DNA from: Crambe crambe
Taxonomy: Eukaryota; Porifera; Demospongiae; Poecilosclerida; Crambeidae
Direction: 5' to 3'
Assembly: GCA_963924555.1 (NCBI GenBank)
Contig: OZ004587.1
Coordinates: 2,046,001 to 2,110,000 of the forward strand
Length of the DNA: 64,000 bases
Shown: piece after piece, positions 598-58,609 of the stretch
How positions within the stretch are numbered: the stretch's first letter is position 1
Layout of the letters: each line of letters begins with the position of its first letter
Position numbers and translations under genes: made by a program
Notes under the pieces: generated by a model
Told to the model about the DNA's origin: nothing
The model's input: the letters and a program-made list of their open reading frames with translations, nothing else
Databases searched by the model: none

Positions 598-876
598 CTT
601 TCATAGTGCAGTACTTTTCCTGTATTTGCTTCGCTAATCCTGACTCATCAACAAGAGGATCATTTAGGACTGTGATTACAGATTCCCAGGATACTGGAAC
701 ATTCGTATTCATACCAAACCAATAGCTCACAGTTTCGATCATGCGTCTGGAAGTGGAAGGATAATCACATTCAAATGTTTTTAGTTTACTTCCTTCAATG
801 CCCAACTGGATGCCTATTTCAAACCATTTGGTCTGCACTTTAGCTAGTTCCTTTCGCAACATCGTTTCATCAATAT
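598..876 (-). CDS. Copy 1 exon: Death domain
   Basis: Ninety-two codons after a TTTTCATAG acceptor. The protein reads [48 protein letters not shown], typical of the six-helix Death fold (helix 1 xxLxxVxxKWxxIGxxLGI; near the end a W-xxVxxxLxxP segment). The split codon joined to the 2A exon gives NPGP-DIDE, so the Death domain would sit at the very N-terminus of the downstream 2A product. The exon ends in phase 1 (AAAG|GTATGT) and is 279 nt, the same as in copy 2. Confidence 0.8.
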
Positions 877-3800
877 CTATGAAAACATAATAATTATAAG
901 CATCAGTTAAATAAGGAATTGAATTCACTTATAGTACTTGCACTGTCTATATAATCACAAACAGATACGAAAGAAGTGATTCTTTATTCATGACAATAAT
1001 ATAGTCTTGTTAGTTAAGTAATGTAGCTATAAAATTAATATAATTATTGATGCTGTCAAAAGTCTGTCTTCTTACATAATCACACATTCCTCCATTATAT
1101 TAATACTTAAAGGGAAAGGATTATAGTGCAGTCAATTTTGAGTAGTGTATAATGATTAGAAGTCGCTTTAAAATGATACTGCTTTGTCTTCTGTTCTTCA
1201 TACTTGAGCACATTGAAGGTGTTCTGTCTTCAAATTCGGAGTTGCTGACTGTAGGAGGGAAGTATTTTGGAGTTATGAAAGGAAATATTAACTTGACATG
1301 TTCAAAAATAGCATCCAACTTGCTAGCTTTCAGCCTACAACATACGTAGCAGACATTTTTATGCCCTGTCCTGTACATGTGATTCTTTGACCTTGACCTC
1401 ACAAGTACTATTGACTAGTGAATTAATTTTGTCATTAGGTTTCGTTGGTCTCTCGATGCTCAGAGCGTGGATCCTAGGCACTATAGTCTGGTTATGAATC
1501 AAGCCTTGATATATCAGGTAAAGACCTTAAGAATTATATACAAAATTAGTCCTTCCAGATCAGATTCATTTTGTCTCATACAATAATATTATTATGATAA
1601 AACCTCCAATAAGCTATATACGTAGCTACGTAGCTACTTTAACTTGGATAGCATCCAGTTGCCTATAATAAACATTACATCAAAAAAGGTATAAAGAAAT
1701 CTTAATAAAAAAGAAAAGAAGGGATGATTCAAAAAAGTTCAGCAACTAGACAGTCAAGTAACCCCTTACTCATCACCAATATTACCAACTACGAGCCAAC
1801 TGTTCCTACTTCACTCCATTTATATCTCATCTTGGTCTGTCATGTGAGCAAAGTAGGAATAGTTAGCTCGTAGTTTGGTAAGAGTAAGGGGTTACTTGAC
1901 TGAAGTTCGCTCTCTTGTTCCTGAATTTTTTTGAACCGCGCACAGCCTTCCCTACTTTTCTTTTTTATTTAGAATAAATATTTTTTTCCTTTATAATAAT
2001 TAATGTTCTCAACTATTAGTAGCGAGCCCAATGTCCACTTCCTATTATGTCATCAAAATGGAGGTGCATGGCTTATCTAAGTGCTTGTGGTAAACATTAC
2101 AGCTTCCTACATATATCCTGATTGAAACTACCACTTACATACATGGCTCTGACAGAAAATCTTAGCTAAGCCTATTAATTTTTATATGCATATAATATAC
2201 TTAGTGAATTCACTCAAACTTGCTCAACTAAGCTAATATTTTCAATTTTACTAAACTTCTTGAGTGAGCACATACAGACTGTGCATGTACATGCATAAAA
2301 TATTACTTCCACTAGCAAGTTTCAGAGTGGACAATGCTGAGGCAGCTCTTTAACTCAGCAAAAAAAAATTTACAGATAATTTTCTTTGAAGTAATGAGAT
2401 CTCTATAATAATATAGCACAGTGCATCAGGTTACAGCTGTCAGGTATCTACGTAGCTATGTAAAAGACATGAATAGTGACTGGTCACTATTTTGAGTAAT
2501 AGATACCTGTTATTATAGGGAACCTGAAAAATTACAAAACATAGAGAACTATAGTATAGTATAGATTGGTGGTTTGTGTAAAATGGATAACTCTAAAGAT
2601 GCTGAACAAACTACAAATTCTTGTTGATCCCACCACTGCCTTATTGGATATGCTCATCACATTCAGGTCTGCATAAAGATCAAGACTCTAACCTACCTGA
2701 ATCTGAGAAGCTTGTAGCAGACTATCTGTTTCTGTGCCAGTTTCTATGCACAAAATTTTTAGCATGCATATACTAGGCCTTTTTGCTTTTCTCCTGCCCT
2801 GCAAAACATGTCAGTGGGACTGAGTACAAGGTTAGCCTTAGCCATGACTCTAGATACATCACTCCACTGTACCAGTGGTATTATAACTGGAACCATTATG
2901 TGCATGCACACTCAAGGAATTTGTTTTAAGCTGGGGAATAGCGATATCTAGACCATGCCTAGAACTCATATCTCCCATTACCTTGTGTTATATCTTGCTC
3001 ACAATTTAACTGATGAGATGCTCATCCACGAATGTTAAATTTGTAGAGTAGCTACCATAATTTTATCAAAGAATCATGCCAACTGCATGTACTTGGCTCT
3101 CTTCTACTTCATAGTGTCAAAAATGTTTCCAAATAAGCATGATATCCTGCAAGCTATGTAAATTTCATGAAATACCTAACATTAGCAGTGTATTTTTCAT
3201 GGGACTTGATATGGAAATTGAAATAATTATTGCTTTATCACTGAGACTTCTAATGTTTAAAGCACCAAAATGTTATACAATCAGCTACTGAATTTATAAT
3301 GAATGAATGAGCATCTGACCTTTCCGAAGCTTCCCTCCCCCCAAGTAGATAGAACCATAGATACTATATAGACTATGTACATGGATAGGCTCCTACACTC
3401 CTTATACGTAGTTAAGTCTTTGCTGTTGAATCATGGAGCTAAGCGACTGTTCCAGTAAGACAGCTGCAAATGTATGCTGAAAAGTGTAATGCTAACATAA
3501 CTTCAAGATAAGCTTTTAATTACAATATGTGTAGAAAGCTTGCTTTATTGCAATTAGCTACATTGGAGCATGCACATACATACATGTGTGGGGCATTACT
3601 AATTGGACAGATACACAATAAGTCATGACTTGAATACTCATTTCAGTGTGCCCACATGATTTACAATACTTGATTCGCGATACACATCTACTCACCAGGA
3701 CCAGGATTAGTTTCAACATCACCAGCCAATAACAGTGTTAATGGTACCAACACTTGATGGTCAGAGTAGTTGACAGTGAAAAGAGCTCCTCTTCTTCGAT

Positions 3801-6800
3801 AATTCTTAGTGCAGCCATAACGGAGCTTGCACATGAGATACGAGCAATGGGGGCCTTTGCATGGGTGAAATTTGAGTGTTCCTTCAGATTCAGTTATGGC
3901 AAGCTTCCACAATAATAATACCAGCAGGAAGTTCAAAGCAAGCAAGTATCTTGTGATATCACCTATAAGAAACAGAATACTAAGAAAGTGGTTTTTAGAA
4001 ATTTTAACTATAGCTATAGGTATTTCAATTCTATTACTTTTGTTACCAAAAAAATTATGTGCTGTAAAATAATGTTTCTGATTTTTCAGGCACCATAGAA
4101 CTAACTACTTGATTACTTAACAGCCATCTCCTATTTCTAACCCTTTGCTCAGAAACATATACAGTTCAGCAGGCTAGCATGATGTCATTTTCTTTTCTCT
4201 ATGCATAGGGAGAATATTATGTAGGTCGATTATTCATAATATTTGCATGTGATTTACATGTGTGACAACTCCTTACTATAATATTAATGTAATGTTGCAT
4301 GATAACTGTATTCATTTCTACTAGCTTAGCTTCATTTCTTCTACAAGGTGTTTATTATTTTTCTAGCTATTTGGAGCTCTTGAAAAATAGTAGAGATTAG
4401 CTGGCATCATAAAAATTAATGTTTTCTCCATATGACTACAGTAATCTCTGTGATATCTGAGCATTAGGTACGTAAGCGTTTCCCACAGTTTGGAGTTTTG
4501 ATAACTGTCTAAGATGTGTAAGATTAACTGTGCCTTAAATTCAAAAATTATTATTATTATGAGCTCGATCATTCTTTCCATTTAGGGGTAGCTATATAGC
4601 AAGTAGAGAGAGAAGAATAGCTCTTTCTATGTAGGATGCCACATATAGACTAATCTTTGTTATGTATATCCAACCAACACAATCCCTACATAATATACAT
4701 CACACTTAAGATGTAAGCTATTGGTAGCTTATTCAGTTATAGTGCAGTAATGTACGTATGTATAGGGATAGTTGGCTGAATATACAGAATAAAGATTGAT
4801 TAGTTCATCCTACCCTTGTTTGCTGAGTAATGCTCATCCCTACATTTACACACAAATGTGTTTTCCTTCTAAATAATATGTATGATAAGAGTTATAGAAT
4901 AAAGGTGACTGTACATCATTTAAATTTTATACTTAAGGTGGCTAAAAAATAAGAATGGAACCGTATTTACCTGAGTATCGTCTAGAACACTGAAGGATTA
5001 AACTTCTGTGATCACAGGTATGATTCCTCGTATAAGAGGAGTTCACAGCCTTTTCTTCTCTTACAGAAGTGCAGTTCACTTGATCAATATGGATGGGGCC
5101 AGTGCCAGAAGCATTGCTTGCAATACTTCTCCCTATAATAATAAAATTTAGTGTTCATGTCATAACAATGTTTTTCAACCTCATAATATTATTATGCCAT
5201 GTACATCTATTCCAGCCATTTCAACCTCATTAAAGAGACTACCTCCTATTCTGCCATGTCCAAACAGCATCTATTTGAACCACCTCATTAAAGAGACTAG
5301 CTACCTCCCACTCTGCCATATGTTCAAAGAGCACCTATTCCAGCTATTTCAACCATAATTATATCCCAACAGCACCTACGTATTCCAGCCATTTCAACCT
5401 ATAGCTCGTTCCTGCAGGCCATTAGGTGGTCACAGTAATTATAATTCATAGGTGCTATTACGTTGGGAGATGGTGGAGTGGCTTTAATAGGAAGGTGACT
5501 GTTACACTAGCTAGCTACATGCATGGTGTTCTGATTGGACAGGTTTCACTATAGCTACAGATTGGAAAACTTGAATCTGTTCTGTACATGTTAAAATTTA
5601 TATAGCAACAATTTAGACATGTTCAAATCACTCTATCAGAATTATATAGCTACTCCACTCGCTATTTTCACTACACAGAAACCCAGTAGATATAGATATC
5701 TGGAGCTAGTCACTGGAAAAAAAGGTTAGAGCCTGTTCATAGCTGAATCTATTCCCCCAAAACAACAACAACAACAATAACAACAACAACAATAACAACA
5801 ACAACAACAATAACAACAACAACAACAATAACAACAACAACAACAAAAAGCTATAGTCTTAATAGCATAATTGTATAAAAAGTCCCACAATACATAGTAG
5901 ATTGCTTTAATTGTGCTTAACAATTTTGACAACTACAGATGATTTCAGAACCAGTTGACCCACCTAGCTATTGCTTGTACTAAGATGCAGCTATAGTAAT
6001 TAAATATAGTATGTGTACTTGATGGTGTTGATGATGCAAATCCTACTTGTCTGCTGGCAACATCTGTTACTTCACGATTGAAGTGGTATCTTTCGCTCCA
6101 AACAGTTTTCCACTCGGAGTTCAGGCATATTTCAAGTTGTCTCTCATAGTAGTACCCTCCAACCAGTCTAATATCTCCTTCAGCACATGCTGTAGAACAA
6201 CAATAGCTGTTATATTATTTGTTCTATAGTCATGGACAATTTCTTCTTTAAACTTTAGCACCAAAGGCCATGCAGTCATGGTCACACAAGTGGTCCAATG
6301 TAAAATTTCTCCAACCAAAATGATATCAATTCTAGGTAGCTACCTCCATAAAGCTTATCTTACCTAAGGAGCATAAGAGCATACCATCATCTTATGTATC
6401 TACATTATGAGGCATTGTTTATTGAAATTGTCACCAGATAACAATTTTAATGCTTGGAGAATTTTTCCTGTACCCAATACCTCACAAGATACATGGTGTA
6501 TCTTGGGGTATTATAGCTAAGAGGTTGATGGCTGCAGTTACAATGTTGATAGCAAGTGAGCGAGCAAGTATTCCTAGAGCTATAGGCTCTATAATTCATC
6601 TGCATGTGTTTCAAATCTTTGATATTGATGAGTCAAGTAGCTATGTAAATGGCAGGAAGCTGTATGTATACATAGAAAGCTGTTAATTGTTTAGATAAGC
6701 CTAGCACATACAATCCGCTTGGCCAGATAAGCCCATAGTGACTATTGTCCACTATTGACGATATGATGTAGAAATCACAATTGGAGCTTGTGGCAGGGCT

Positions 6801-7552
6801 CTACTAATACACTACATATCATAAGCCTGGAGTGTACACATAGATGAATTGAAAGTCGGTTTACTTGCTGTGCTCACTTGCTGATAGAACAAGGATGAAT
6901 TTGAGATTACGAAGTTGACAACCACTGTCACAAGATGTTCTATAATCTCATCCTTAGCTACATCACTTTAGAACTTTTAATTATTTTTTGTATCTTTTTC
7001 ATGCAAGTTATTAATGTCAAATTCGATACTACTTGGTAATTGCTACCTTCCTAGCTCTATACCCATTACCCTTATTTGTTGAGCCTTCCCTATCAAACTT
7101 CCAACGTCCTTCTTGAATTTCATAAGTCTTTTATTTTTTGCATAGCTGTTTAATGTTTTTAATGGGTATTCGTTCATTTGCAACCTGGCAATACTTTTGT
7201 TTGTAATTTACTATTTAGAGTATGCTCATTCAGTATTGTTGTTAGCTATGGGTTGGTAAGCAAAGTATTCCAAAATTTAATTCAATGTGATAATGTGAAA
7301 TAAAGTAACATACACCAAGAGATTGCAATGATTATTCTCACCATTGTTTAATAAATCCTGCATCTTGAGTGGATATAAAAGTATGACAGCTATGAACAAC
7401 CACCATGCAGTCCAAATAAAAGGAATGAACCAGACATGGCGGGAAAGGACGGGGTAGCTTCTCTGCTTAGGTCTATCGCCGTTGAAGCAATAATATTGCC
7501 TCAGGTACTGGACCCGAGACTTCCACAACTGCACTAGTTCAGACCTGATCAT
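598..7552 (-). CDS. SRCR/2A/Death-domain receptor-like gene, copy 1 (5' part)
   Basis: Five exons can be joined in one frame: 7552-7342, 6189-6019, 5132-4971, 3962-3696 and 876-598. All have GT-AG borders and every internal junction is phase 1. The order is signal anchor, SRCR first half, SRCR second half, hydrophobic segment plus 2A motif, Death domain. The last exon ends at a donor, so the gene continues left of base 1; by comparison with the copy at 44.6-56.9 kb the missing part should hold the kinase-like and Roc-COR regions. If the 2A motif acts, the upstream product ends at the glycine before residue 270. The SRCR exons are too short or lack a start codon, so a plain ORF search misses them. 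The exon joins are my prediction; an upstream 5' UTR exon is likely because an acceptor precedes the ATG. Confidence 0.7.
1173..1517 (+). CDS. Possible 5' exons of a secreted Ig-like protein
   Basis: ATG at 1173 (or in frame at 1152) starts a good signal peptide, MILLCLLFFILEHIEG, followed by KGNINLTC. A donor after 1345 (AC|GTAGCA, phase 2) and an acceptor ending at 1438 (TCATTAG) join in frame to a second exon 1439-1517 that reads TFRWSLDAQS then YSLVMNQALIYQ and ends CAG|GTAAAG. A cysteine, then a tryptophan about 17 residues later, resembles the B-C strands of an Ig domain. No third exon was recognised. It lies in the 2.8-kb intron of the minus-strand gene. It may be a relic or chance. 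Confidence 0.35.
1752..1901. mobile_element. Foldback (MITE-like) element
   Basis: The two ends are inverted copies: the left starts AGTCAAGTAACCCCTTACT and the right ends with its complement. Imperfect pairing continues inward through CGAGC and GTTCCTACTT. The same end sequence (CAAGTAACCCCTTAC, TTCCTACTTCACTCC) recurs near 20325-20430, so it is a dispersed family. No coding capacity. Confidence 0.65.
3696..3962 (-). CDS. Copy 1 exon: hydrophobic segment plus 2A-like skipping motif
   Basis: The exon starts after TTATAG with [20 protein letters not shown], a hydrophobic run that would return the chain to the cytosol after an extracellular SRCR loop. A cysteine- and base-rich stretch follows (CKGPHC, KLRYGC, NYRRRG), then a leucine-rich lead into [13 protein letters not shown]-x-N-P-G-P is the canonical 2A motif, at which the ribosome fails to make the Gly-Pro bond and resumes at Pro. 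The donor follows one base after the proline codon, so the next exon supplies the residue after Pro. The apparent start MLALNF is a TTG codon, not ATG; the exon is internal. Confidence 0.8.
4971..5132 (-). CDS. Copy 1 exon: SRCR domain, second half
   Basis: After a TTATTATAG acceptor the exon reads RSIASNASGTGPIHIDQVNC and later NHTCDHRSLILQCS before a GTAAAT donor. GTGPIHIDQVNC corresponds to the family's GSGPIHLDDVxC, and HTCDH...LQCS to the conserved HNCxHxEDAGVxC end. Phase is 1-1, so it joins the preceding half-SRCR exon and the 2A exon in frame. No counterpart was found in copy 2. Confidence 0.65.
5201..5405. repeat. Degenerate tandem repeat, about 65-75 bp unit
   Basis: About three copies of a unit built on TTCCAGCCATTTCAACC, CATTAAAGAGACTA and CTCTGCCAT. 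It lies in the intron between the two SRCR half exons of copy 1. Confidence 0.55.
5761..5846. repeat. (AAC)n/(AAT) microsatellite
   Basis: AAC triplets interrupted by ATAAC. The cysteine/tyrosine run read from the other strand is a by-product of the repeat and not a gene. Confidence 0.9.
6019..6189 (-). CDS. Copy 1 exon: SRCR domain, first half
   Basis: The exon begins after a CTACAG acceptor and reads CAEGDIRLVGG, then LEICLNSEWKTVW, then VASRQVGFASS, matching the first half of a scavenger-receptor cysteine-rich domain (family pattern: RLVGG, GRVEV, TVCDDxW, VVCRQLGF). Two usual cysteines are replaced: TVC has become TVW and VVCRQ has become VASRQ. The chosen donor at 6019/6018 leaves phase 1 and fits the next exon; another GTAGG donor upstream would be phase 0 and would not. 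It should face the outside, between the two hydrophobic segments. Confidence 0.65.
6545..6830. mobile_element. Dispersed 'GAGCGAGCAAGTATTC' element (copy a)
   Basis: It shares GAGCGAGCAAGTATTC, then ATAAGCCTAGCAC and ACAATTGGAGC blocks with 13680-13765, 50400-50660 and 56140-56430. The blocks keep their order in several copies, suggesting a short non-autonomous transposon family. Exact ends are not resolved. Confidence 0.45.
7342..7552 (-). CDS. Copy 1 exon: N-terminal signal-anchor exon
   Basis: Seventy codons from ATG (7552) to a phase-1 donor. A basic 39-residue N-terminus ([14 protein letters not shown], then PKQRSYPVLSRH) precedes a hydrophobic span at about residues 40-60 (VWFIPFIWTAWWLFIAVILLY). 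Positive charge before the span predicts type II topology, with the N-terminus in the cytosol and what follows outside. An acceptor (GTTAG) lies ten bases upstream of the ATG and the ATG is conserved in copy 2, so this is probably the start codon with a spliced 5' UTR. The two copies are almost identical here. Confidence 0.7.
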
Positions 7553-44647: not shown

Positions 44648-46491
44648 CTAAATTATTTCAGACATTTTGAGTTCATTCGATTGTCTATTACTGCATTCAC
44701 AAAAATCTGATTCCAAAGTTAGTTTCTTTATCAAGTAGAAATGTTTAACAGTTGATGAACAACTTTCATTCTTGCAGGCTAAAGTTATATCGAATTCTTT
44801 CTTTTCCAACCAACGTGGAACTATTCGCTGGAGCTGAACATTTAATGTGGACAAAATATGATAGTAGATATCTTCACTCAAGTTAGCATTGTCGTAAGAA
44901 ACGCAGTCGACTCGAATATGGTGGGAGAATTCTGATAATATCACACGCATGCAATCATTGATAATAAACTCAAACTGATTTCTGCAGGATTCAATACACT
45001 CTTTGCTGTAATTGAGAGGAATCCTCCATCTTGTGTTGCCGTAAGTAACTCCAGCCAATGCAGTCAACAGTCTGGTGAACACACCAGTAGCAATGTATCC
45101 AGATTCTGGAACTATGTAGAGAGGAGATACGTCTCTATTCAACTGCTCCAATGCACTTCCATATTCCTCCTTTATGGGCAGTATTGAAGGAATGAAGTAG
45201 CAAATCTCTTCTCCTGGAAAATTCACTTTCATGCTTAGATGATGCTCTTCAAGGAATTCCATGAACCAGTGGTCATCCAATTTAGTTGGTTTCCTGTCGA
45301 GAAGGTACCTGTAAAAGCTCATTGATACGATTCCTTTCTTAGTCAGCTTGCTCCATTCAGCTTTCAGAGATCTTGGATCATAGCAAAACAGAGTTCCAAG
45401 GACTTGCAGCAAGGCTTTGGGATCAATGACTACAAAATTTCTCATCGTCCTTCTCTCTGACAGATGGTGCCACATGAACACACCTAGTTCATGGAAATAC
45501 ACTAGGGCAGCTTTAGGTTCATCAACATGACATTTGTTTTTGCCAATGGAAATGGCTTCATCCAAGGGAATAATGCCAATATTGATATACTCAGTGTAAC
45601 ACAATCGTTGAAGTGCCAGTTTGAATGCTTGCCATGAGCGAGGGATTTCAGATCTCGAGTCCTTAGCACATGATGATATGGTGTTTCGAAGGGACTCAAT
45701 TCCCGAATCGCTTTTTTTGTTAAGTTTTTTACCTGACTTGGTATTGTCCACCTCATGAATGTAAGACTCACCTTGTTCTAGTACAGTATAGAGTGACAAA
45801 TCACTTCTGTACTTCTTTGCAAATTTTCCAATGGCTTCATCTAGAGCATCTTTCTTGTCTTGGAGTGAATTACTCTCAGAAAGAACTGCTTGATCTTTGC
45901 ACGTCCCAACGACAACTGCTGCAGTTGAAAATTTCTGGGAATCTCGTGATTTAACTTGTGGTGGCAAGTTCTCCATTTTCTTCTCCACACTGGATGAGAA
46001 GGCTTGGACAAAAGATAAGTTGCGGTACATGATGTCTCGATTAGTGAAAGGAGATGAAGCTGGCTCCAGGAAAGACTTGCATGGTCGGATTTCTGGCTTA
46101 TTATCAAACTTTTCCAAGTCACTCAAACGGAACACTATTCCATACATGCATTTTAGTCGTGCAAAGCAAGGGAGTAGATCTTGGAATATCGGTTGACCTC
46201 CAGTGTCCCACATGGTGAGAAAAACTTTACTTTGACAGTCACTGGGTAGATCCAGTAATGGCTTGAAGGCACTTCCAGCAACAGCTGTCATTGATTCCCG
46301 ATAGAGGAACTCGGGTTGCATGACTATTGTGGGAGTCTCATTGTCGTCTATTGGTTCGTCTTTGAGATGCTTTCGGAGACTTGTTTTTCCAACTCCAGTG
46401 TGGCCTATCAGTATGACGTGAATTTGAACTTCATCTTCTATGAGATCACTATCAGTAATCTTTACCAAGCCAATCCATGTCTTTTCTGTCT
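44648..46491 (-). CDS. Roc GTPase and COR exon of copy 2
   Basis: 614 residues ending at TAG. Begins [16 protein letters not shown] after TTCATTATAG. G1/P-loop GHTGVGKTS (about residues 892-900 of the joined protein), G3 MWDTGGQP (about 958), and VVVGTCKDQ (about 1061) at the G4 position, the usual Roc variant of NKxD. A switch-side insertion of some 30 residues lies between. COR follows, with [17 protein letters not shown] and [20 protein letters not shown], the typical MIxDPxWLxxxxxxL and winged-helix-like region seen in Roc-COR proteins. All GTPase motifs look intact, unlike the neighbour gene. Separated from the previous exon by a 79-base intron, the shortest here. Confidence 0.85.
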
Positions 46492-49400
46492 CTATAATGA
46501 AAAATATTATTTTTTTAGTTTATCAACACTAATCTTGTTCATAATAATTTTTGAATTTCAGTAAACTTACCCAGTAAGTGCTGAAGTTCATCTGTTAGAA
46601 CTGAGTAGGAGACTGGTCTTAATCGAGAGTCTTTGGATACCCATTTCTGTTCGAAAATGTTCTTCAGCAAATGATTTTCTGGAAGTTGAATATTGGTAGT
46701 GATATTACCACGTGAAAATATTGAAAGTATAGTCTCCTTCATCCAAAGCAAGTCGTCATGTGATAATGTTTCAGAAGTTGAAGATGACTGTTCACCAATG
46801 AATGACTGACCATAGACAGGGATAAGTTTTGCTTCCATTTCAGCAGCATTTTTGTGAATGAATATATGGTCCATCACTACCTTTACCTTTTGATTGAGGT
46901 TTTCAAATCTGCTCATGCAACTGGAAATACTCGTCAGAAGTGATAACTGATTGACTTCCGATTCTCCATAATAATTGGAAGAGGAGGCAACTTCTTTTAA
47001 AGGTTCTAATTTCTCAACGATTACTGCTGGATATTTCTTTTGCCCTTCCTCCTCTGTTGGTGGGTAATACAATCCCTTGATTGATGGAACTTCTTTGTGA
47101 TCTCGAATCAAGACCTCGAGGTATTTGATATACCCTGCATCCACTGTGGATTCTTCAGTGAATTGATCAGGATACACGAGAGCCATACACTCTTTGCCTT
47201 GATGTTTGGCTGTTACCATCTTACTTTGTTTCTCATGTAAAAGTGATTTTTTCACAGGTGAGTCTGGAGTCTCTAGTGTGACATCTGTGAGCATCTTCCA
47301 GTGCTTCAGCATCACCTCACGTTTCTCAAACTTGTAGGATTGGACACTTTTTTCCTTGATTGCTTTTAGTTTCCTTGGAAAGAGGGGTATGTTCTCTAAA
47401 CGTTGTAAGTCATCACAAGGTATTTGAAGGCAAATTATTAGACTTCCTGTTTCAGCTCGATGTATTAGTATATTAGCAGGCTTTATGTCTAAAAGTTTGC
47501 TCAGAAAAAGCTTGAAATCGTTCAGTTCATTAATTTCATGTACTGGTTGATTGGAATCAATCACGAATACAACTTTGCAGTGAGTTTTGATATCTGCAGA
47601 AGAAAAGTTTTGACCACATTCATATACTCTGCATTTTGCATATCTTTTAAATGCTTCAACATAGTCTTGGGATTTTTCCTTGTCTTCTGCAGTTCCAATC
47701 TTTCCTATGATATCTTTTACAAAAAAGTTGAAATTCATGTAAGATTGATGTTTAAAAATAAGCTGCAAAAGTTCCTCTGAGTCTTTATTCTTCTCGATTT
47801 CATTCATTGTAGCTTTATCAAAGGCAAATATGGCTGATGCTCTAAACAGCCTATTGAATTCTCTATTAGGATTTTCTCTACTCATAAAAGATTCCCAAAA
47901 GTCTTCAAATAAAGTGAGAAAATGTGATGTGATTTTATTTGTTTTGTCTCTCAACATTGCTACATAGAGATGATAATCATCGCAAGTAGGTGGCCATGTG
48001 GGTGGTTTTGTATGTGGCACAACTGAAGTTTCTTCTGATGACTTTGCACTACTGTTTCTTTCAGTGCATGAAGGTTTATCTGGAGAGACATTAAGGGAAG
48101 ACTGTTTTGTTTCAGTGACAGTGCTGCTGTCAGGCTCTTCCACAGAACTGCTTTGGTTTGTGGGAGCAAGTTGTACTTTGGAGTGTGCAGCAGATGAGGT
48201 GACTATAAGATAGAAACATGTTATGATAACCCATGCCATGCAAATGCTTAATATTAAGGTAATATCATTGTTATAAAATTATCAGAGAGTTCTCTGAGTA
48301 CCTGTAGAGCAAGGGTAGAAGAGAAAAGAGTTACTACAGTCTTATGACCTTTGTCCCGCAATCCCTACTAAGAAAGTGCCAACACGCTCTCTGATAATGC
48401 TAATGTTTTTTCTCCATGATATATAGTTGTATGCAATAAAAACTTCTATGGAATTTCCACGGATATTGGCTAGTAGTTGCTACAGTGTGTGAAATGTGAC
48501 TACTCTTGTTTGCTTACTTTTTTCACCTGCATTTTTTTTCATTTCACAGAAATATTTTTTCTCCCTTAGCTATGTATCTTTTTTTGCCCAATGCCTTTTA
48601 ACAGCTAATGGATATTTCTATGTGCATGCAGAGACAGATGAAAGAAGTGCACACTGTAGTTTTCTTTTTGGCCAATTCCATAGCAGATGAGTAAGTCAAG
48701 TGTTCATAACTGTGATCATTGAAGAAGAATCCCTGAGTTAAGTTTGATGTCACCAAAATAAAAAAATTGTGAAAAGATTGAGATCAAGAGTGGTTGACAC
48801 ACAGCTACAGCCAGAGTTCACTGATCTGAGTGCACATAGAAATATACTTGAATTTTTCGATTTGATATCAATTACATGTGTTATTATTAAGGCTTCTGTA
48901 TACGTAGGTCCCTGTAGTTTCACCTTTTAAATCGACTCTTTGAAGATCGACAAGTAGTAAATATTGTAGCTAGCTGGTAGAATTTGGGTGGATTTATGCT
49001 GTAAACTTGAGTTGTTTGCAAGAGGTAAAGATAGCTAATGAAGAAGAAGAATGCAGTAACTTAGCTGCTTGCTGTATTTCTGAAATGTCCGGTAAGCTCC
49101 CTGGTCCTGAAACATGTTCTGTTCACTCCAAATGGAGGAACTGGAATTTCTACACAGCAGCCATAATATAGAGAGAACTATTAATCTCTATGATTAGCTA
49201 GCTATTCCTTTGGATTCATAGTAGCTAAATAGTCTTATGTCTGACTGTGACACCATACCAGTCAGCATAGCTCTTTGCATTCTGGGCCCTATTTTTTTAA
49301 CTCCTCCTTTATAATCTTGATACAATAAAGCAAGTTAGCTAGAATACTTCAGTTCTAACTAAATTTTGATGCGTTCTTTGATTAATAACTAGACAAGCTG

Positions 49401-49904: not shown

Positions 49905-52900
49905 GACCCTGCTGGGGCCACCTAGCTCTATGTTCTATGTAGGGGTATGCCCTCACTGGGCCCCCAAGATTACAAGTTTTGGGGGAGTGGCCCCTGCAGC
50001 ATTACCAAACCTTTATTCCACATAATATTATATGTGGAATAAAGGTTTGGTAAATGGTAGTCCCAACTGCAAATTGTTAAATTATACCAAAGAGAACAGG
50101 TTCATTTTCAAATATTGATACTTAAATAAACTTTTTAGGACTGAGAACACTAGAAAGGGTTACCAGTTGTTGTTTTTTTCTTTTTTTTTTTCCTTTGCCT
50201 TGGGTGTAATCAGTCCTTAGTCACTGACCCTACTGAAGGAGTGGGACACAACATCGGAGCAAAGTTAGGTGAGCCCACGTGGGAGTCAACAAAGTACTAT
50301 ATGCTAGCTGATAGGCTGGTTCTACTTATTTATACTTCAGATATAGCTGAGACAGAGTCATGTAAGTGGTGATTCTAACCATCTACATAGAAATTAAACA
50401 TTTGACAGCTAGTGAGCGAGCAAGCAAGTATTCTTTAGTGCTTCAACTCTTTAAGAAGATTTTGCTGTGAGTTTATACGTATATAACAAAGCACTTAGAT
50501 AAGCCTAGAACAATTGGCTCAGTACAGAGTGAGATAACTCCGTGAGATATGGGCAGACATCTCACACTTGGCCTATATCAAGTATTGAATAATTTCAATG
50601 AGTCATGACCTGAGAGTCAACTCGCTCGCTCCACTCGCTTGCTGAATTATTATTGCCAAAGTTATGCACAGTAGCTATTTGTGTGGGAATCAAGGCTTGT
50701 TAAAGGCAATAATTATTGCACTATTATAACATGATGTGAACATAGCTACGGTCTTCATCACCTGTTGCGTTGCCGTACAATGTCGGTAGAACGCTCAAGC
50801 GTTGTAAAAAAACCGTGTGCGAACACTGTATAAACGCAAAGCAGGCGTTATAGCGCTTTGCATTGAACGGCCCAATTAAACGTACGTAGTTGAGTTCGAA
50901 ATTATTAAAAGTTTTTACGGTATGAAAGCACACAGCAATTCCAGCAAAAATGTTCATCAGCAGATCGACAGCGAGATATGACCTGCAGGCAGTCTCCGAA
51001 GAAGGCCTTGAGCTCTACGTAGCTACACAGATATTGACTCGTGCATGCTAGTGGTGGTACAATTTCTTCTGCCTTCATCGTGTCTGTAAAGTTTCATCAC
51101 GCTGCAAATCTGACAATAGAACATCATCATAAACATAGGTGGTGTTATACTATAGCTAGCTGTAACTGCAGAGCTAGCTAGCTAGCTGGCACTAGACATA
51201 AGCTAGTCAGCTTAGAGAGATAGCTAGTCAGCCTAGAGAGATAGCTATGTATATTAATTTTTTTACGTAGGGTTACAACGTTTTTTCACCTACGTACGTG
51301 CGAACATAGCTATGCTTCCTATTGAACGGTGGGTACAGGCGTGCAACACTTGATGTTAACGGTGTAGAAAATTAAATGCACGGGTGGCTGTGTAGAAACT
51401 ACAACAGTCAAGCCAGTCCTACGTGGACGGAATGGGAACTTTTTTTTGCGGCCTACCGTAAATGACTGTGTATAATAACATTATACCTTTCTCAGGGCAG
51501 TACTTTTCCTGTATTTGCTTTGCTACTCCTGACTCATCAACGAAAGGGTCGTTAAGAACTGTGACTACAGATTTCCAGGATACTGGAATATTTGTATTCC
51601 CATCCAACCAATAGCTCACAGTTGCCATCAAACATCTGGAAGTGGAGGGGTGATCACGTTCGAATGTTTCAAGTTTGTTTCTTTTGATGCCCAATTGGAT
51701 GCCTATTTCAAACCATTTGGTTTGCACTTTAGCTAGTTCACTTAACAAAATCCTTTCATCAATATCTATGGGAAAAAAAAGCATCAGTTAAACCAAGGAG
51801 TTGAATTCACATAAAAATTACTTGCACTGTCCATCATTATTATTGGGGCAAGCGAAATGATCCCCACACTAGTGATGACGACCTTTCACCCTCATATGCA
51901 GACATATAAATATGTACTCATATATCTCATACGTCCTAACATTGTAGTTTATTTCCATTGGGTAAACTGAACATGCACGTTCACCTGATAAAGCTTTGCA
52001 TTTCTCTAGTAGAATACCTGACACATACTCCAGCCTTTTATCCAGTCTTTTTTTCTACCTAGCCTAAATAAAACTAATAGTTGTTTTTCCCATGTGTATT
52101 TTCTTGGGATACAAAATAAAACTCCAGATTAAGGATTCTAAATGATACTGATTTGAATTTTTGCTCCATTAGACCCTTTTCTTACAGCTGTAAAATGTAC
52201 GTAATGTCATAACACTAAGATAGAGCCTTTAATGACAGAATGCTCTTATGTATAGACAACTTGCCTTTATACATGCGCAGGTCAATACTAATTGGAGTGA
52301 TACACAATGAGTCATGCATGACCTGTGAGTCAGCTTGATCAATGCACTTAATTATTGCCAGTGATGAATAAAGAAATGGGTTGGGGAATACATGAAATAG
52401 CATTAAGAATTTTAGCTGATATAAATTATTACCACATAGCTAAGTAGATGATATACAGTCTAGTACAATGCACATACTAGCATATCATGACATACAGGTT
52501 ACAAAATCAGCCATGTGTGACCATCATCATCATGAATACCATTTCCTGTGGGTATATTATTTGCCCACATACTGTGTATATATAATTCTAACTAAGTAAC
52601 ATACTTACCAGGACCAGGATTAGTTTCAACATCACCACACAATAACAATTTTAATGGCGCCAACACTTGAAGGTCAGAATAGTGGATAGTGAAAAGTGAT
52701 TTTCTTCTTCGATACCACTTCCAGTCATCACAAAGAGGTATGGAAGCATTGTTGTACGCAGTAGTGCAGCCATATTGAAGCTTGTGATTGGTGAACATGG
52801 GACATGAACAACAGGGGCCTTTATACGGGTGAGGTCTAAGTTTTCCTTCAGATTCAGTTATGGCAAACTTCCACCACAATAATACCAGCAGGAAGTTCAA

Positions 52901-55900
52901 AGCAAGCAAGTATCTTGTGATATCATCTATAAAAAAGGTTTTAATGCAGAAAATTTAAGCATAAATATTTCATTTTTACTTCTACAACTCAAATAATAAA
53001 AAATGGCATTATAGCTAAAGGTTTCTGATTTTACAGGCACTTTAGAGTTTTACTATTCCCACCTCAATACTAACTTTATGTACTTAGTATCAAAATTATA
53101 AGCCATATCCTATTTCCAAGCCATTGTTCAGAAAACACAAACAGTTTGATATAGATTAGAGTGATGGCATTTTTCATTTCTCTATGCATAGCATATAAAA
53201 TATTTCCTTTATTCTTGCTGTTTGTTAGATGATCACAAAATCAGCTTGCTCTCGTTATTTATGGCTTTCATGTTGGTTTACTTGTTCCCAGTGACGATTG
53301 TTAACTTCTCTGCTTTGCTTTCTCACGACTGTTGACTTGACTTTGTAGCTTCTGTTTTTGCTCTCTTTTGCTACCCTCTACTTTTGCTGATTGGTTTTGT
53401 TACCCCCAGTACTTTCTCAGACAGTACTTTCTCAGACAGTACTTTCTGAGTTGTAAGTTTAAATGTACTGCAACCTCTTATGAAAACAATCCCTACATTC
53501 ACAGGATTGTTTTCATATGAGGCTGTAGTACATTATTCAGCCCAGGCCAACCATACTTAACCTTTTATTTTTATGCTGTTATAACAAGTACAGCTAATAA
53601 CAATTGTAGATATAGCGATGTACGTACAATGTTAGATTTTTGCTGAAAAGTTGTTTCAATATTCAGATTTCCAAGACTGTATGCGGCAAAATATGTTCAA
53701 TAGCTAATGTGAATTTCTATTTTTTATTTTTTATTTTAAGCATAATTATTATTGTTTTTTGCGTCTGTATCACAAAATCATGATATTTTTTGGAAAAAAA
53801 TTGCAGTACAGCAAACATAATAAGCATAAACCAATAATTACAATATCAAGATATGAACATACACATTTCCACTTCTCAAACATTTAGTTTTAGGTTGTTG
53901 CTACTTAGTACTACCTGTAGATGACATTCCTAGTTGCTTGCAGACCACACTGGCATCAGTGTCACTCCACATCTGGTCACACACAGTTCCATTGAGACAT
54001 ATCTCCACACGACCCTCAGTACCAGTTCCATTTACAAGTCTGAAATCACCTTCTGTGCAACCTAAAATAATGTCATCAAAGTTTAATTGAGTAACTAACA
54101 TGAGAATAATTTTGCACATATTAATTTCAAGTAGCTAACCACCAAGAATGGACATCTAATACTTCAGACTTAAATATAGCTATTAAATTTATAGCTTTAC
54201 ACATGAAGTGATTTAATGCAACATCATAGCTCTATAGCTACCTGGTAGCTATACACACCAAAACAGGACATAATCACTTGCTTTCTTAGGAGTAGGAATG
54301 GCAAAGACTACCCAATGCTTGTCAAAATAGCCTAACTATAATAAGATCAAACTTATAAGTACCTATAATGGTGGAGACACTTCATTTAAGGTGCTTAAAC
54401 ACCACAGCTATACTAAATTAATTATTTTTGGAGGCACATCAAAGACTTTGCTATATGATGATAGTGGAAGAGAGCTCAGATGAGTCTACATACATTACTC
54501 TACACTACTTGACCTAGCTCAAAGAGTCAGTGGATGTACTCAAATATATTCATTATGGGATATTCATATTTTTGGATGCATCCGAAGATAATTATTATAA
54601 CAATGTCCTTAATCTAGTGTTAAGTAACACCTTGAAATCACAAAAATTGAAAAATCACTAAATTTTATACCCATAGCTTTTAATATAATGGTATTACTAT
54701 TACAATTTAGTGTATACTTGTTCAGTATAATTATGATTAATTTTGGTGAGCAAAACATTCAAAAAGTATTTAAAGGTAATTCTATACCGACTTCATTCAA
54801 TTATTGTACTTTACATATCTCCTAGTTAGAGATCAAGCAATTCTCATCAGTGTTTAATAACATTTATCAGGAAATTCAGAATGGTAGGAAACAGTTGTTT
54901 ACCATTATTGTTATTATTATTCATAGCATGCTACACAAAGTCTCATTCCCATTCCTATACTCTCTATAATAACTAATTTCATAAATGCAGATTTGTAAGA
55001 TCTGTTTTTTTTATTAACTTGGAATTCTTACTTAGTAGTTGCAGATATATATTTGAACTAGCTACTCTACAGCTATTCAGAAATACTTTGATGTATAAGA
55101 TATCTCCACTGCACTATAGTTAGCTACTACTGCTAGTGCAAAGAATTCCTTTATAATATAGTTCTTTGATTTTAAAGGTAAAGGAGCAAAGCATCCTTTT
55201 AACCAGGCTTTTGCATGTGAGATTATAGTTGCTACACCAAATTAATTATGATGGCAATAATTACATGTAATTGTAGTCCTAAACACAGGAACAATATATT
55301 ACTGAGCAGGAAGCAAGGTAAGAAACTTGTATTGACATTTTGTTATGGGCTAGGGCTAGGGCATCAACTATTAAGGGAGGATGCACCCCTCATTAAAACG
55401 TCCATATCTACACTCTATAAGCTTGAGTTAGGTCTCAAAAGAGAGCTCTCCTTGAGAGCCTTCCTCTTTACACCACCCCCATATATGGAAGACCTGACAT
55501 GACCTCAGTGGTTGATAAAATTACCACATACTTAGGAGCCGTTTGATATTCTTATCGTAGCTTCTATGGGCCTAGCTGCTTTGAATGTACTTTGGGATTT
55601 CAAAGGGGGTATGATTTCAATGACATGGACATTTAAAAAATTTTGGGGGTGTGTCCTCCATTAAACTTCAGTTAAGATTAAATATTTCAAAGGCAACTGC
55701 ATACCAAGTAGAACAATTTCACTTGGTACTGGCTATGTACATCATTTGAACTGACAGAAATTTTTTTGCACGTGGTTACAAGATTTAATGCTGAAGACTG
55801 AAGATCTAAAATTTAATTTATGTCATTACTATACTCTATCAATAATAATCAGAGTTCTTTATTACTGTAAGGTTTGTCACTGTTGCTGGCACTTGATGTC

Positions 55901-56885
55901 AAATTATGTATATTGATCATAGAGAAAAGAAAATGGCATAACAGCAGCACAACTGAGCTTTCGAGCAATGGCTGAGAAAGTATAGCTCTAATTGTTGGCT
56001 CTTTTATGATGATAGTGAGTACTAAGATGGCAAGTATGAAACTCCAGAGTGCATGTAAGAGCTCACTAATTTGCACTCATTCACAACTAGGATATGCTCA
56101 TTATGGGTTGCATACAGCTTTTTAGATTACTAGCTACAAGCTAGGGCAATGTGCAACATTAATTTTGACAGCGAGGGAGCAAGTATTCTTAAGGTAGGCA
56201 GCTGCATAATTATAATAAAAATTTGTAATGCTTACCACAAAGTAAGCCTAGCACCTACTATAATAATATCCAAAAGGCTGTAGAAATCGATCAAGGCAAT
56301 TACAATTGGAGCATGCGACTCTGCCCTACTATTGCACGTATATGGGTAATTGGGGCATTTTGGATTGTAGACCTAGATACATACAACAATTTCAATGAGG
56401 TATGACCTGAGAGTCCTCCGCTTGCTTGCTGGATAAATTTAAAATAATTAAAATATCACTTTTTTGTCATGGTTTTTCATTATAGTTATTTCATAGCTAG
56501 TAAGGGTGTAATTATTCGCTGGACTGGATGCTATAATATACTGGACTGGACCACTTGTCTGACCTTCATCTATTTTCTGTATGTTCATTCATGGTGAGCA
56601 AAGTGTATTTCTACCAACTTCATTCATAAAATAATTAGTAAACAATTAATTCGCCCATTACACTTAATTCTCACCGTTGTTTAATAAATCCTGCATCTTG
56701 AGCTTGTATAAAAAGATGACACCTATCAACAACCACCATGCAGTCAAAATGAAAGGGATGAACCAGACATGGCGGGAAAGGACAGGGTAGCCTCTCTGCT
56801 TTGGTCTATGGCCGTTGAAGCAATAATATTGCCTCAGGTACTGGACCCGAGACTTCCACAACTGCACTAGTTCAGACCTGATCAT
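44648..56885 (-). CDS. SRCR/2A/Death/kinase-like/Roc-COR receptor-like gene, copy 2
   Basis: Six exons join in frame with GT-AG borders: 56885-56675, 54061-53915, 52926-52609, 51765-51487, 48202-46571 and 46491-44648, total 4,431 nt and 1,476 residues. All joins are phase 1. Order: type II signal anchor (about residues 40-60), first half of an SRCR domain, hydrophobic segment, 2A motif with its proline at residue 225, Death domain, Ser/Thr-rich linker, unassigned region, kinase-like region, Roc GTPase and COR. With 2A skipping the products would be 224 residues (membrane, SRCR) and 1,252 residues (Pro-Death-kinase-like-Roc-COR). The second SRCR half seen in copy 1 is absent from the intron where it should be. 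The scheme suggests an extracellular sensor whose signalling part is released co-translationally; that is inference. I know of no described protein with this order. Confidence 0.7.
46571..48202 (-). CDS. Linker, unassigned region and kinase-like region of copy 2
   Basis: 544 residues, phase 1-1. An apparent signal peptide [18 protein letters not shown] at the ORF start is an artefact: CTATCTTATAG is an intron acceptor, and the exon starts at [10 protein letters not shown]. Residues 1-60 are Ser/Thr-rich. Then come about 200 residues of unknown type ([39 protein letters not shown]). The last 200 resemble a protein kinase without catalytic residues: [11 protein letters not shown] where VAxK is expected, [12 protein letters not shown] like a hinge, [11 protein letters not shown] where HRDxxxxN is expected, LIPVYG for DFG, and [20 protein letters not shown], the RPxxxxL signature of the last kinase helix. 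The kinase assignment is a moderate guess. Confidence 0.6.
49866..49903. repeat. Poly-G tract (38 G)
   Basis: Flanked by CATTACAC and TGACCCTGCTGG. The poly-proline/glycine frames across it are by-products. Nearby GGCAGACCCAACTG and GGGCCACC suggest it sits in a hAT-like relic, as at 20.5 and 29.7 kb. Confidence 0.95.
50002..50053. repeat. Palindrome, 23-bp perfect arms
   Basis: Arm TTACCAAACCTTTATTCCA plus CATA, six-base loop ATATTA, then the exact complement. Would form a cruciform or hairpin; possibly the end of a foldback element. Confidence 0.85.
50400..50660. mobile_element. Dispersed 'GAGCGAGCAAGTATTC' element (copy c)
   Basis: Has GTGAGCGAGCAAGCAAGTATTC-type start, AAAGCACTTAGATAAGCCTAG and the TTTCAATGAGTCATGACCTGAGAGTC end with CGCTTGCTGAATTATTA. 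Related copies lie at 6545, 13680 and 56140. Confidence 0.5.
51487..51765 (-). CDS. Copy 2 exon: Death domain
   Basis: Same length (279 nt) and phase as in copy 1. Reads [56 protein letters not shown]. The first codon is completed by the last base of the 2A exon, so the chain is NPGP-DIDE: if skipping occurs, this domain is the N-terminus of the cytosolic product after a single proline. The Death fold mediates homotypic assembly in innate-immune and apoptosis pathways. Donor AAAG|GTATAA is weaker than in copy 1. Confidence 0.85.
52609..52926 (-). CDS. Copy 2 exon: hydrophobic segment plus 2A-like skipping motif
   Basis: 106 residues, phase 1-1, acceptor TTTTTTATAG and donor [30 protein letters not shown] is followed by a Cys-rich, basic stretch ([34 protein letters not shown]) and the skipping motif GDVETNPGP with a leucine-rich lead (LAPLKLLLC). 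It has about 17 residues more than copy 1 before YRRR. There is no in-frame ATG: the apparent start is TTG, so the exon depends on an upstream start, which the signal-anchor exon supplies in the right phase. Cellular 2A motifs with hydrophobic leaders are known from sea-urchin NLR-type proteins; here the motif sits inside a multi-exon receptor. Confidence 0.85.
53466..53530. repeat. Imperfect hairpin in intron
   Basis: TACTGCAACCTCTTATGAAA with CAATCC pairs with GGATTG and TTTTCATATGAGGCTGTAGTA across an eleven-base loop. It lies where copy 1 has its second SRCR exon region. Confidence 0.6.
53915..54061 (-). CDS. Copy 2 exon: SRCR domain, first half
   Basis: After [54 protein letters not shown], then donor ACAG|GTAGTA. 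It matches the first half of an SRCR domain, and unlike copy 1 keeps the cysteines in TVCD and VVCKQLG. GTVCD lacks the usual GxW before TVC. Phase 1-1. Without the second half, the domain should not fold normally unless another exon supplies it. Confidence 0.75.
54062..56674 (-). other. Intron of copy 2
   Basis: 2.6 kb between the signal-anchor and SRCR exons. A minus-strand frame at 55849-56076 has hydrophobic stretches but no ATG and a stop directly upstream. At 56140-56430 lies another 'GCGAGxGAGCAAGTATTC' element with its TTTCAATGAGGTATGACCTG end. Confidence 0.5.
56675..56885 (-). CDS. Copy 2 exon: N-terminal signal-anchor exon
   Basis: ATG at 56885, 70 codons, phase-1 donor AACG|GTGAGA. 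Basic N-terminus ([29 protein letters not shown]), then hydrophobic span [20 protein letters not shown]. An acceptor (ATTTTAG) ends at 56896, ten bases upstream of the ATG, as in copy 1. Type II topology is predicted. Differences between the copies are few and mostly within or just after the membrane span. Confidence 0.7.
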
Positions 56886-57626: not shown

Positions 57627-57941
57627 CTATTTCCTTAAGGCTTTAAGTGTAGAAACCCAGCAACCTTGAAGTTCTAGACCTACATCACTATTAAAACGCT
57701 GTTCTTCTGAAGTTAAACTAATGTGAAGCGCTTCTTTTAGAAGCAGCTCCTTCCTAGTCCTAGCTTGATCTACAACTGAAGCTTCCTTCCATAATATAGG
57801 ATGATGACTACTCCAGGCATGATCAGCAACTGCAGACTTTTCTTGTTCTCCTCGTAGGCAAGCTTCCTTATGCTCCTTCAATCTAGTTTCCAGCCTTCTC
57901 ACCGTTCCACCAATGTAAAATTTTCCACAACTACAAGGTAG
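57627..57941 (-). pseudogene. GIY-YIG endonuclease piece of the Penelope-like element
   Basis: CSCGKFYIGGTVRRLETRLK, EHKEACLRGEQEKSAVADHA, then LLLKEALHISL. YIGGT is the GIY-YIG signature and RxxxRLxEH...HxxxxxHxIxW follows the PLE pattern (AWSSHHPILWKEASV). An in-frame TAG lies just upstream of CSCGKFY, so it is cut off from the RT piece. Confidence 0.75.
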
Positions 57942-58234
57942 CTACCCTATAAACAACATTAGAATTTTGGTCAGATGGCAACTTATCCTTAACCTTAGAA
58001 AGTTTGGATCTCAAACTAACCCCTGATCTAAAAACAACCTTAATATCAAATTTTCTGCAAACCCTCCTAATCTCTTCACTAAGGCCTTTAACATATGGAA
58101 TTATTATTAGTTTTTTTTCCGTTTCTTCCCCATTTCCCTAGGTTTTGGTGCTACGGGATTTAAAGTTGCAGAGAGAAAGGCTTCTGGGTAATCATTATTA
58201 ACAAGAACTTTTTTAAGATGCATATGTTCCTTAA

Positions 58235-58525
58235 CTAAGTCCTCTTCATGTGTAGTAACCCTCGTGGCTCTATCATATAAGCTTTTAATAACTCCCCTTT
58301 TACATGTATTGGATGGTGTGATCTATAATTTGAATACCTATCTGTGTGTGTCTGTTTCCTATATACTGTAGATAAAATTTTACCATCATTGTCTACTTCT
58401 AATAAACAATCTAAGAAGGGAAATTTACCATCTTTCTCTAACTCTATCGTAAATTTAATTGAAGGTCCAACTTTATTCAAATGTCTAATATATAAGGTCG
58501 TTTCTGTGTGTGTTTTTAGTATCAC
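58235..58525 (-). pseudogene. Reverse transcriptase C-terminal piece of the Penelope-like element
   Basis: Reads IKFTIELEKDGKFPFLDCLL, EVDNDGKILSTVYRKQTHTD, RYSNYRSHHPIHVKGELLKA. PLE reverse transcriptases end with FTxExExxxxLPFLDxxxxR...TxxYRKPTxTxxYxxxxSxHPxxxKxxxxxxLxxRA. The frame ends at 58235 and the catalytic YxDD region is absent. Confidence 0.75.
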
Positions 58526-58609
58526 CCTGATGAAGGCTAGAGTATTCTGGTCGAAACGTTGGTGGTTTGTTTCATAAGTTAATTTTATGAGAACTAATTC
58601 TATTGAATT
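58487..58609 (+). ncRNA. Hammerhead-ribozyme-like core, right end
   Basis: Plus strand: CTGATGA (58527-58533), stem GGCTAGA (58535-58541), loop GTAT, TCTGGTC (58546-58552), GAAA (58553-58556). Same departure (extra A at 58534) as the left end. Because the two ends are inverted, one core lies on each strand. Confidence 0.5.

Follow-up and report, generated by a model that had tools for sequence, protein, structure and literature searches.

The closest described relatives of the arrangement treated here are found among the NLR genes of the sea urchin Strongylocentrotus purpuratus. Roulston et al. 2016 (PMC4981915) count a 2A motif (SpNLR2A) in 85 of 241 SpNLRs, and in 14 of the 87 that make up a later NCBI set; one of these motifs, SpNLR2A6, recodes at ~80% in vitro, and partial skipping that divides the product between membrane and cytosol is a published idea for these genes (PMC4981915). 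Here we consider a gene of the sponge Crambe crambe, on a stretch of 64,000 nucleotides (assembly GCA_963924555.1, contig OZ004587.1, positions 2,046,001 to 2,110,000; ‘the window’ below), in which an exon ending in a canonical 2A motif stands ahead of a Death-domain exon. As in SpNLR2A, the window 2A is N-terminal, lies in a hydrophobic leader ahead of a Death domain and belongs to a large immune-type gene family. The original prediction for this DNA had held the placement to be unlike that in NLR-type genes; this part did not stand, as the motif is near the N-terminus, just as in the sea urchin. The differences from SpNLR2A are others: the window gene carries ROC, with no NACHT downstream; its leader spans two exons and 175 aa, with two hydrophobic stretches, whereas those tabulated for the sea urchin are 26-aa N-terminal peptides on NLRs; about 17 leader types coexist in the sponge; and a phase-1 donor closes the 2A exon.

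A second parallel comes from Amphimedon, where most of 357 TRADD-N proteins carry one to three N-terminal Death-like domains and a variable C-terminus, ankyrin for example (eLife 2021, PMC8195603); the plan downstream of the 2As described here is similar to this Death and TRADD-N expansion. The Amphimedon text makes no mention of NPGP, skipping, signal peptide or leader, and uses ‘transmembrane’ six times, never for sponge proteins (PMC8195603).

The third comparison is with viral StopGo/2A sequences. A leucine-rich stretch followed by (A/S/C)G, with D at p12, corresponds to StopGo upstream motifs 2 and 6 of a 2026 study; motifs 1, 3, 4 and 6 were assayed active, with the characteristic positions essential in almost all cases, and cellular use of 2A is there called rare or absent (PMC12846837). 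NLRs have been named as the cellular case (PMC11512398). The sponge sites share with the viral ones the core octapeptide and the L-rich (A/S/C)G context; unlike them, they are cellular, spliced, placed at an exon end and found in gene arrays. Non-LTR (non-long terminal repeat) retrotransposons of the APE type are reportedly a further source of 2As with an L-rich context, as Odon is said to have described in 2013; unlike those, the sponge 2As have no reverse transcriptase or endonuclease in the open reading frames (ORFs) scanned.

No sponge 2A was found in the literature searched; its coverage was partial, with the eukaryotic 2A survey of Rao et al. 2025 outside it, and a prior report is possible. 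Three candidate reports were rejected: PMC5890393 concerns an SH3/PX ‘protein 2a-like’, PMC9925728 an enzyme named NPGPx, and PMC5009743, in the part available, glass-sponge mitochondria along with a cardiovirus NPGP.

A 2A motif at an exon border

The exon at 52926..52609 on the minus strand terminates in GDVETNPGP and one further G, followed by the donor gtaagt. The next exon opens at 51765 with ATATTGATG, directly after the acceptor ...cccatag, and the spliced reading is NPGP-DIDE. The original prediction had placed the motif one base before the donor with this very join, and reading of the exon borders bears it out. Directly upstream of the core stands LLLCG, which fits the L-rich (A/S/C)G context. 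A degenerate 2A pattern, allowing at most two mismatches, matches the window twice (52611-52633 and 3698-3720), both times with none; in 100 shuffles of the window the same pattern gave a mean of 0.01 matches. Across all 119 contigs of the 143-Mb assembly, D-x-E-x-NPGP has 208 exact matches (105 + 103), and a reversed-pattern control has 0. As shuffles and control yield next to nothing, the motifs in window and genome are beyond chance.

The features of the window gene are as follows.

56675..56885, minus strand: exon 1, the first coding exon, with Met start, 70 aa, one hydrophobic helix and phase-1 donor g/gtgagaat
53912..54058, minus strand: SRCR half-exon within intron 1, outside the gene model (Pfam SRCR 1.2e-8)
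52609..52926, minus strand: exon 2, 318 nt, phase 1-1, with a hydrophobic helix, a Cys/Arg-rich segment, then the 2A
52610..52633, minus strand: 2A core DVETNPGP, where skipping is predicted to fall after the Gly and before the final Pro (codon CCT at 52612-52610)
51487..51765, minus strand: exon 3, Death domain, phase 1-1, start of the predicted second product, Pro-Asp-Ile-Asp...
46571..48202, minus strand: exon 4, 544 codons, no Pfam domain
44648..46491, minus strand: exon 5, ROC (Ras-of-complex) GTPase (Pfam Roc, E 6.8e-10) and stop codon

These five exons have GT-AG borders, all introns are in phase 1, and the model runs for 1427 aa with no internal stop. The true upstream partner of exon 2 is, by sequence, the Met-started exon at 56885..56675, and not the SRCR piece. 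A genome search with exon 2 (112 matches at E <= 10) gave 67 strong copies at E <= 8.4e-11, the window's own being locus L001; one with exon 1 gave 72 matches at E <= 1, of which 69 were used. Of the 67 exon-2 copies, 66 are preceded on their own strand by an exon-1 copy, at a gap of 84 to 15,601 bp, the single exception being C8:604278; on the opposite strand within 20 kb of the 67 there are none. In the 21 copies with both borders readable, the exon-1 donor g/gt keeps its position and an ag precedes exon 2, which matches it in phase (phase 1). Five phase-1 exons in one frame, with exon 1 at 66 of 67 copies, argue that the motif is part of a gene and not a stray; the claim of a canonical 2A within a spliced cellular gene has held, with a Death fold downstream in a five-exon frame. 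Three of the 69 exon-1 copies are without a strong exon-2 partner (two at C11:7.08-7.09 Mb, one at C1:4.96 Mb).

Exons 1 and 2 together encode 176 residues, 175 of them up to the Gly of NPG^P. Hydropathy marks two hydrophobic stretches, roughly residues 39-64 and 75-95. As the loop that separates them is short, they may form a membrane hairpin whose two ends face the same side. The whole is an N-terminal leader with no recognised ectodomain, and the word ‘receptor-like’ in the original prediction finds no support.

Exon 3 taken with Pfam alone is a weak match to the Death domain (E 0.15). AlphaFold2 models it with a mean pLDDT (predicted local distance difference test) of 93.2 from 35 aligned sequences, and the top 25 Foldseek matches are without exception death-domain entries, among them Fas/FADD, TNFR1, p84, ankyrins and DR3; their probabilities reach 1.00, but their E-values are no better than 0.08. 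On the strength of this model we take exon 3 to be a Death domain, which bears out the prediction that the 2A lies between a membrane part and a Death-domain part.

In exon 4 there is no Pfam domain, and a PDB profile search gave nothing at E <= 1; its fold model is poor (mean pLDDT 47.6), and a structure search from that model was uninformative. Matches to its first half follow Death domains under different leaders as well, in L035, L036, L037 and L057 (phmmer, 4.5e-10 to 2.6e-4), and an iterated profile adds L031. Exon 4 may, as a lead, be a helical and TRADD-N-like region as in the Amphimedon Death proteins. In exon 5 no COR model was matched (Pfam), though several hundred residues follow ROC; against PDB it gave six weak matches, to ClpC/MecB and Rab proteins (E 0.0013-0.0092). 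For the 1427-aa model as a whole, none of 4290 word-sharing candidates among public proteins matched at E <= 1e-5.

Constraint on the leader and spread of the cassette

Exon 2 evolves under constraint. Its ratio of nonsynonymous to synonymous substitution (dN/dS) is 0.34 in the window subfamily (n=16), 0.28 in a sister subfamily (n=14) and 0.40 over all 31 copies; for the last 26 codons, the corresponding values are 0.26, 0.12 and 0.28. The codons of the 2A core vary synonymously: GAT/GAC, GTT/GTG, GAA/GAG, AAT/AAC, CCT/CCA, GGT/GGA. The 31 copies are free of stops and frameshifts, which is partly independent evidence, because their extraction asked for a phase-matched acceptor. Of the 67 strong copies, 65 end in a listed intact core; the core of L017 is intact by its sequence, and the exon of L016, excluded from the dN/dS calculation, is interrupted. 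In that locus (about 1500-2320) the 2A core and donor are found intact some 490 bp further on.

In every comparison, selection constrains the leader's first exon more than the Death exon. For exon 1, dN/dS is 0.185 (n=11), and 0.16 in the window subfamily (n=4); for the Death exon it is 0.575 (n=10), in a set of copies that differs from the exon-1 set. A separate run with more nearly matched copies gave 0.175 for the last 30 codons of exon 1 (n=12) versus 0.664 for the Death exon (n=9), and the two window copies taken alone gave 0.225 versus 0.358. Because the leader is so strongly constrained, the sequences suggest that it has a function of its own.

Coordinates are listed for 200 of the 208 genomic sites, and one more is known from L017, giving the 201 used here. 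At 150 kb the 200 listed sites form 52 groups, the largest with 23. The sites read individually number 63, namely 62 fetched loci and the window's second copy; L031-L062 were chosen by hand, with one or a few from each cluster. All 63 have the core D(V/I)ExNPGP; p11 is always G and p10 always A, C or S, positions that the search pattern did not fix; leucine, likewise unfixed, stands at -5 in 62 and at -3 in 58. Upstream of this shared tail the leaders diverge: BLAST at E 1e-4, after trimming 12 residues, sorts them into 18 groups, one of which is the broken L016, leaving about 17 leader types. Some of these may be distant relatives (L044, L045, L047 and L060 are alike by eye).

When donors within 60 nt of NPGP are compared, the best one is in phase 1 at 61 of the 63 sites, in 16 of the 18 leader groups (the exceptions being L032, with no donor found, and L060). 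A phase-1 cassette is swappable between genes without a break of frame. The 2A cassette appears to have been shuffled, often ahead of NLR-type, ROC-type and ankyrin-type Death-domain proteins. In L002, exon 2 is 94% identical to the window's and the first Death domain is of another type, which looks like a cassette swap.

A Death profile was built from 12 seeds, 11 from fetched loci and one from the window gene. It finds a downstream match in 42 of the 62 loci, and the listed matches include none upstream or antisense; with the 12 seed loci removed (L001 counted for the window seed), 30 of 50 loci have Death downstream. For distances over the 201 sites, the 150 matches scored of 688 candidates were used: at least 26 sites have a Death-like match within 6 kb downstream, compared with 2 that have one upstream and none with one on the opposite strand. 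Still farther downstream, Pfam recognises NACHT (L034, L042 and L058, a likeness to SpNLR2A), NB-ARC/STAND (L052), ankyrin (L035 and L048) and immunoglobulin (Ig; L032). Some loci have features of their own. L002 and L017 each show two tandem Death-like matches after the 2A exon, the second in L002 being weak (4.3e-6) and at the locus edge. In L045 a long ORF made up of tandem repeats rich in Gly, Gln and Met, with a poly-Gln tract, comes after a Death-like exon. A tandem repeat resembling RKSPQVSAS replaces the second half of the Death exon in L055, perhaps a degenerating copy.

The window holds a second copy of the gene, which continues past the left edge.

7342..7552, minus strand: exon 1 of the second copy
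3696..3962, minus strand: exon 2 of the second copy, with an intact 2A at 3698-3720 and an in-frame deletion relative to the first copy
602..877, minus strand: Death exon of the second copy (Death match at C10:2046602-2046877)

A separate gene lies downstream of the first copy at 42036-44429 on the minus strand, with a 690-aa open frame, a Ser/Pro-rich stretch and then a Death-like exon (custom profile 8.7e-7, Pfam 0.046). ORFs at 57627-58618 on the minus strand we take to resemble the tail of a Penelope-like element, with a GIY-YIG-like segment; Pfam gave no match there at E <= 0.01.

Readings of the leader-2A arrangement

One perspective, which we hold to be probable, supposes that one mRNA gives two proteins: a working 2A would free a membrane leader from a Death-(exon 4)-ROC protein, the same cassette closing about 17 leader types among the loci read. 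That is, the ribosome would first make the membrane leader, the 175 aa of exons 1 and 2 with its two hydrophobic helices and a terminal ...GDVETNPG; the nascent 2A would then prevent the glycyl-prolyl bond at NPG^P, and the leader would be let go; most ribosomes would go on from Pro-Asp-Ile-Asp to make a separate cytosolic protein of 1252 aa; a small non-skipping fraction would stay fused and membrane-tethered. The topology, the two products and an immune role are what we infer here.

Motif, context, exon structure, conservation and association with Death domains can be read directly in the sequence, and we think from them that the 2A sites are active in skipping. Activity is favoured because core and upstream context match the StopGo class, including the assayed-active motif 6, and because the 2A tail is under purifying selection while its core codons change synonymously. 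The reading as a whole is favoured by precedent, since SpNLR2A6 recodes in vitro. We conclude that leaders are probably released from Death-domain proteins as in sea urchin NLRs, here with many swappable leaders.

Several observations weigh on the other side. When the distance is extended to 10 kb, with the same 150 scored matches, Death-like matches lie downstream of 30 sites and upstream of 6, with 0 on the other strand. In 20 of the 62 loci there is no Death match in the sequence examined, many of these having just 1.5 kb downstream. One listed core has Met instead of Val or Ile (C5:9085034). The joins of exon 1 to exon 2 and of exon 3 to exon 4 are inferred from phase and splice signals, with the paralogues added for exon 1. 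Finally, signal sequences at the N-terminus are able to inhibit 2A in certain artificial polyproteins (PMC2978324).

A variant shifts the weight from the leader to the ratio of products: the leader would be mainly an anchor, and partial skipping would set the proportion of membrane-tethered to cytosolic Death protein, as proposed for SpNLR2A6. This dual targeting overlaps the two-protein reading and shares its first step, and the likelihoods of the two are not meant to add up to one; taken for itself, we regard it as a tentative possibility. The N-terminal placement of the 2A and the hydrophobic stretches in the leaders speak for it, as does the sea urchin precedent (PMC4981915). The constraint on exon 1 of the 175-aa leader, however, exceeds that on the Death exon, a degree of conservation that a disposable anchor would hardly seem to call for; since other leaders are short, the leader's role may not be the same in every family.

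It is very unlikely that the motif is retained as part of a membrane or binding module, with no skipping at all. Constraint over the entire exon 2 would suit such a module, but about 17 leader groups that BLAST finds dissimilar outside the tail nonetheless end in a common 2A tail, which also contains the active-class context residues.

The 2As could instead belong to copies of non-LTR retrotransposons that landed near genes. Such elements are known to carry 2As (PMC4981915), and LLLLSG-like upstream contexts exist among StopGo elements (PMC12846837). The sponge sites, however, are clustered (52 groups), and they lie in spliced exons with Death, NACHT, ankyrin, NB-ARC or Ig domains; moreover, Pfam scans of 13 window ORFs and of 25 ORFs or stretches (24 distinct) from a subset of the 2A loci turned up neither reverse transcriptase nor endonuclease. 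We find this origin for the present-day sites highly improbable; the first cassette may have had an ancient retroelement origin.

The SRCR half-exon lies ~1 kb upstream of exon 2, in phase, between exons 1 and 2. Its dN/dS is 1.00 (n=16 copies), 11 of the 16 have another residue in place of the VVCKQ cysteine, and no second SRCR half was seen in reading the stretch between it and exon 2. In seven other copies the gap from exon 1 to exon 2 is just 84-149 bp, and there is therefore no room for an SRCR exon. It looks like an intronic relic, and the coding sequence holds no complete SRCR ectodomain. The earlier reading, in which a 2A at the module boundary separates an SRCR sensor receptor from its signalling part, had this in-phase half-exon in its favour and is hardly credible against neutral evolution, a mostly lost cysteine, an unseen second half and the seven short gaps. 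Though neutral-looking, the half-exon (53864-54063 and L006-L016) is much less diverged between copies, with a proportion of synonymous differences (pS) of 0.028 versus 0.13 for exon 2; recent gene conversion or a young duplication may account for this.

In a bolder reading, skipping would be general wiring of this animal's immune-type death-domain network: with a phase-1 2A exon shuffled among leaders and effectors, each gene would yield membrane leader and cytosolic Death effector at 1:1, and a fused-to-free ratio tunable by translation stress would act as the switch. We put this forward as a speculation, and a rather unlikely one. If the sites work, then with 208 of them in one 143-Mb animal genome, and Death downstream in two-thirds of the loci (42 of 62), the view that 2A is rare in cellular genes would be wrong for at least this lineage. 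The sponge genes would then be a larger parallel to the sea urchin NLR case, and would offer natural paralogues for asking what cells use ribosome skipping for.

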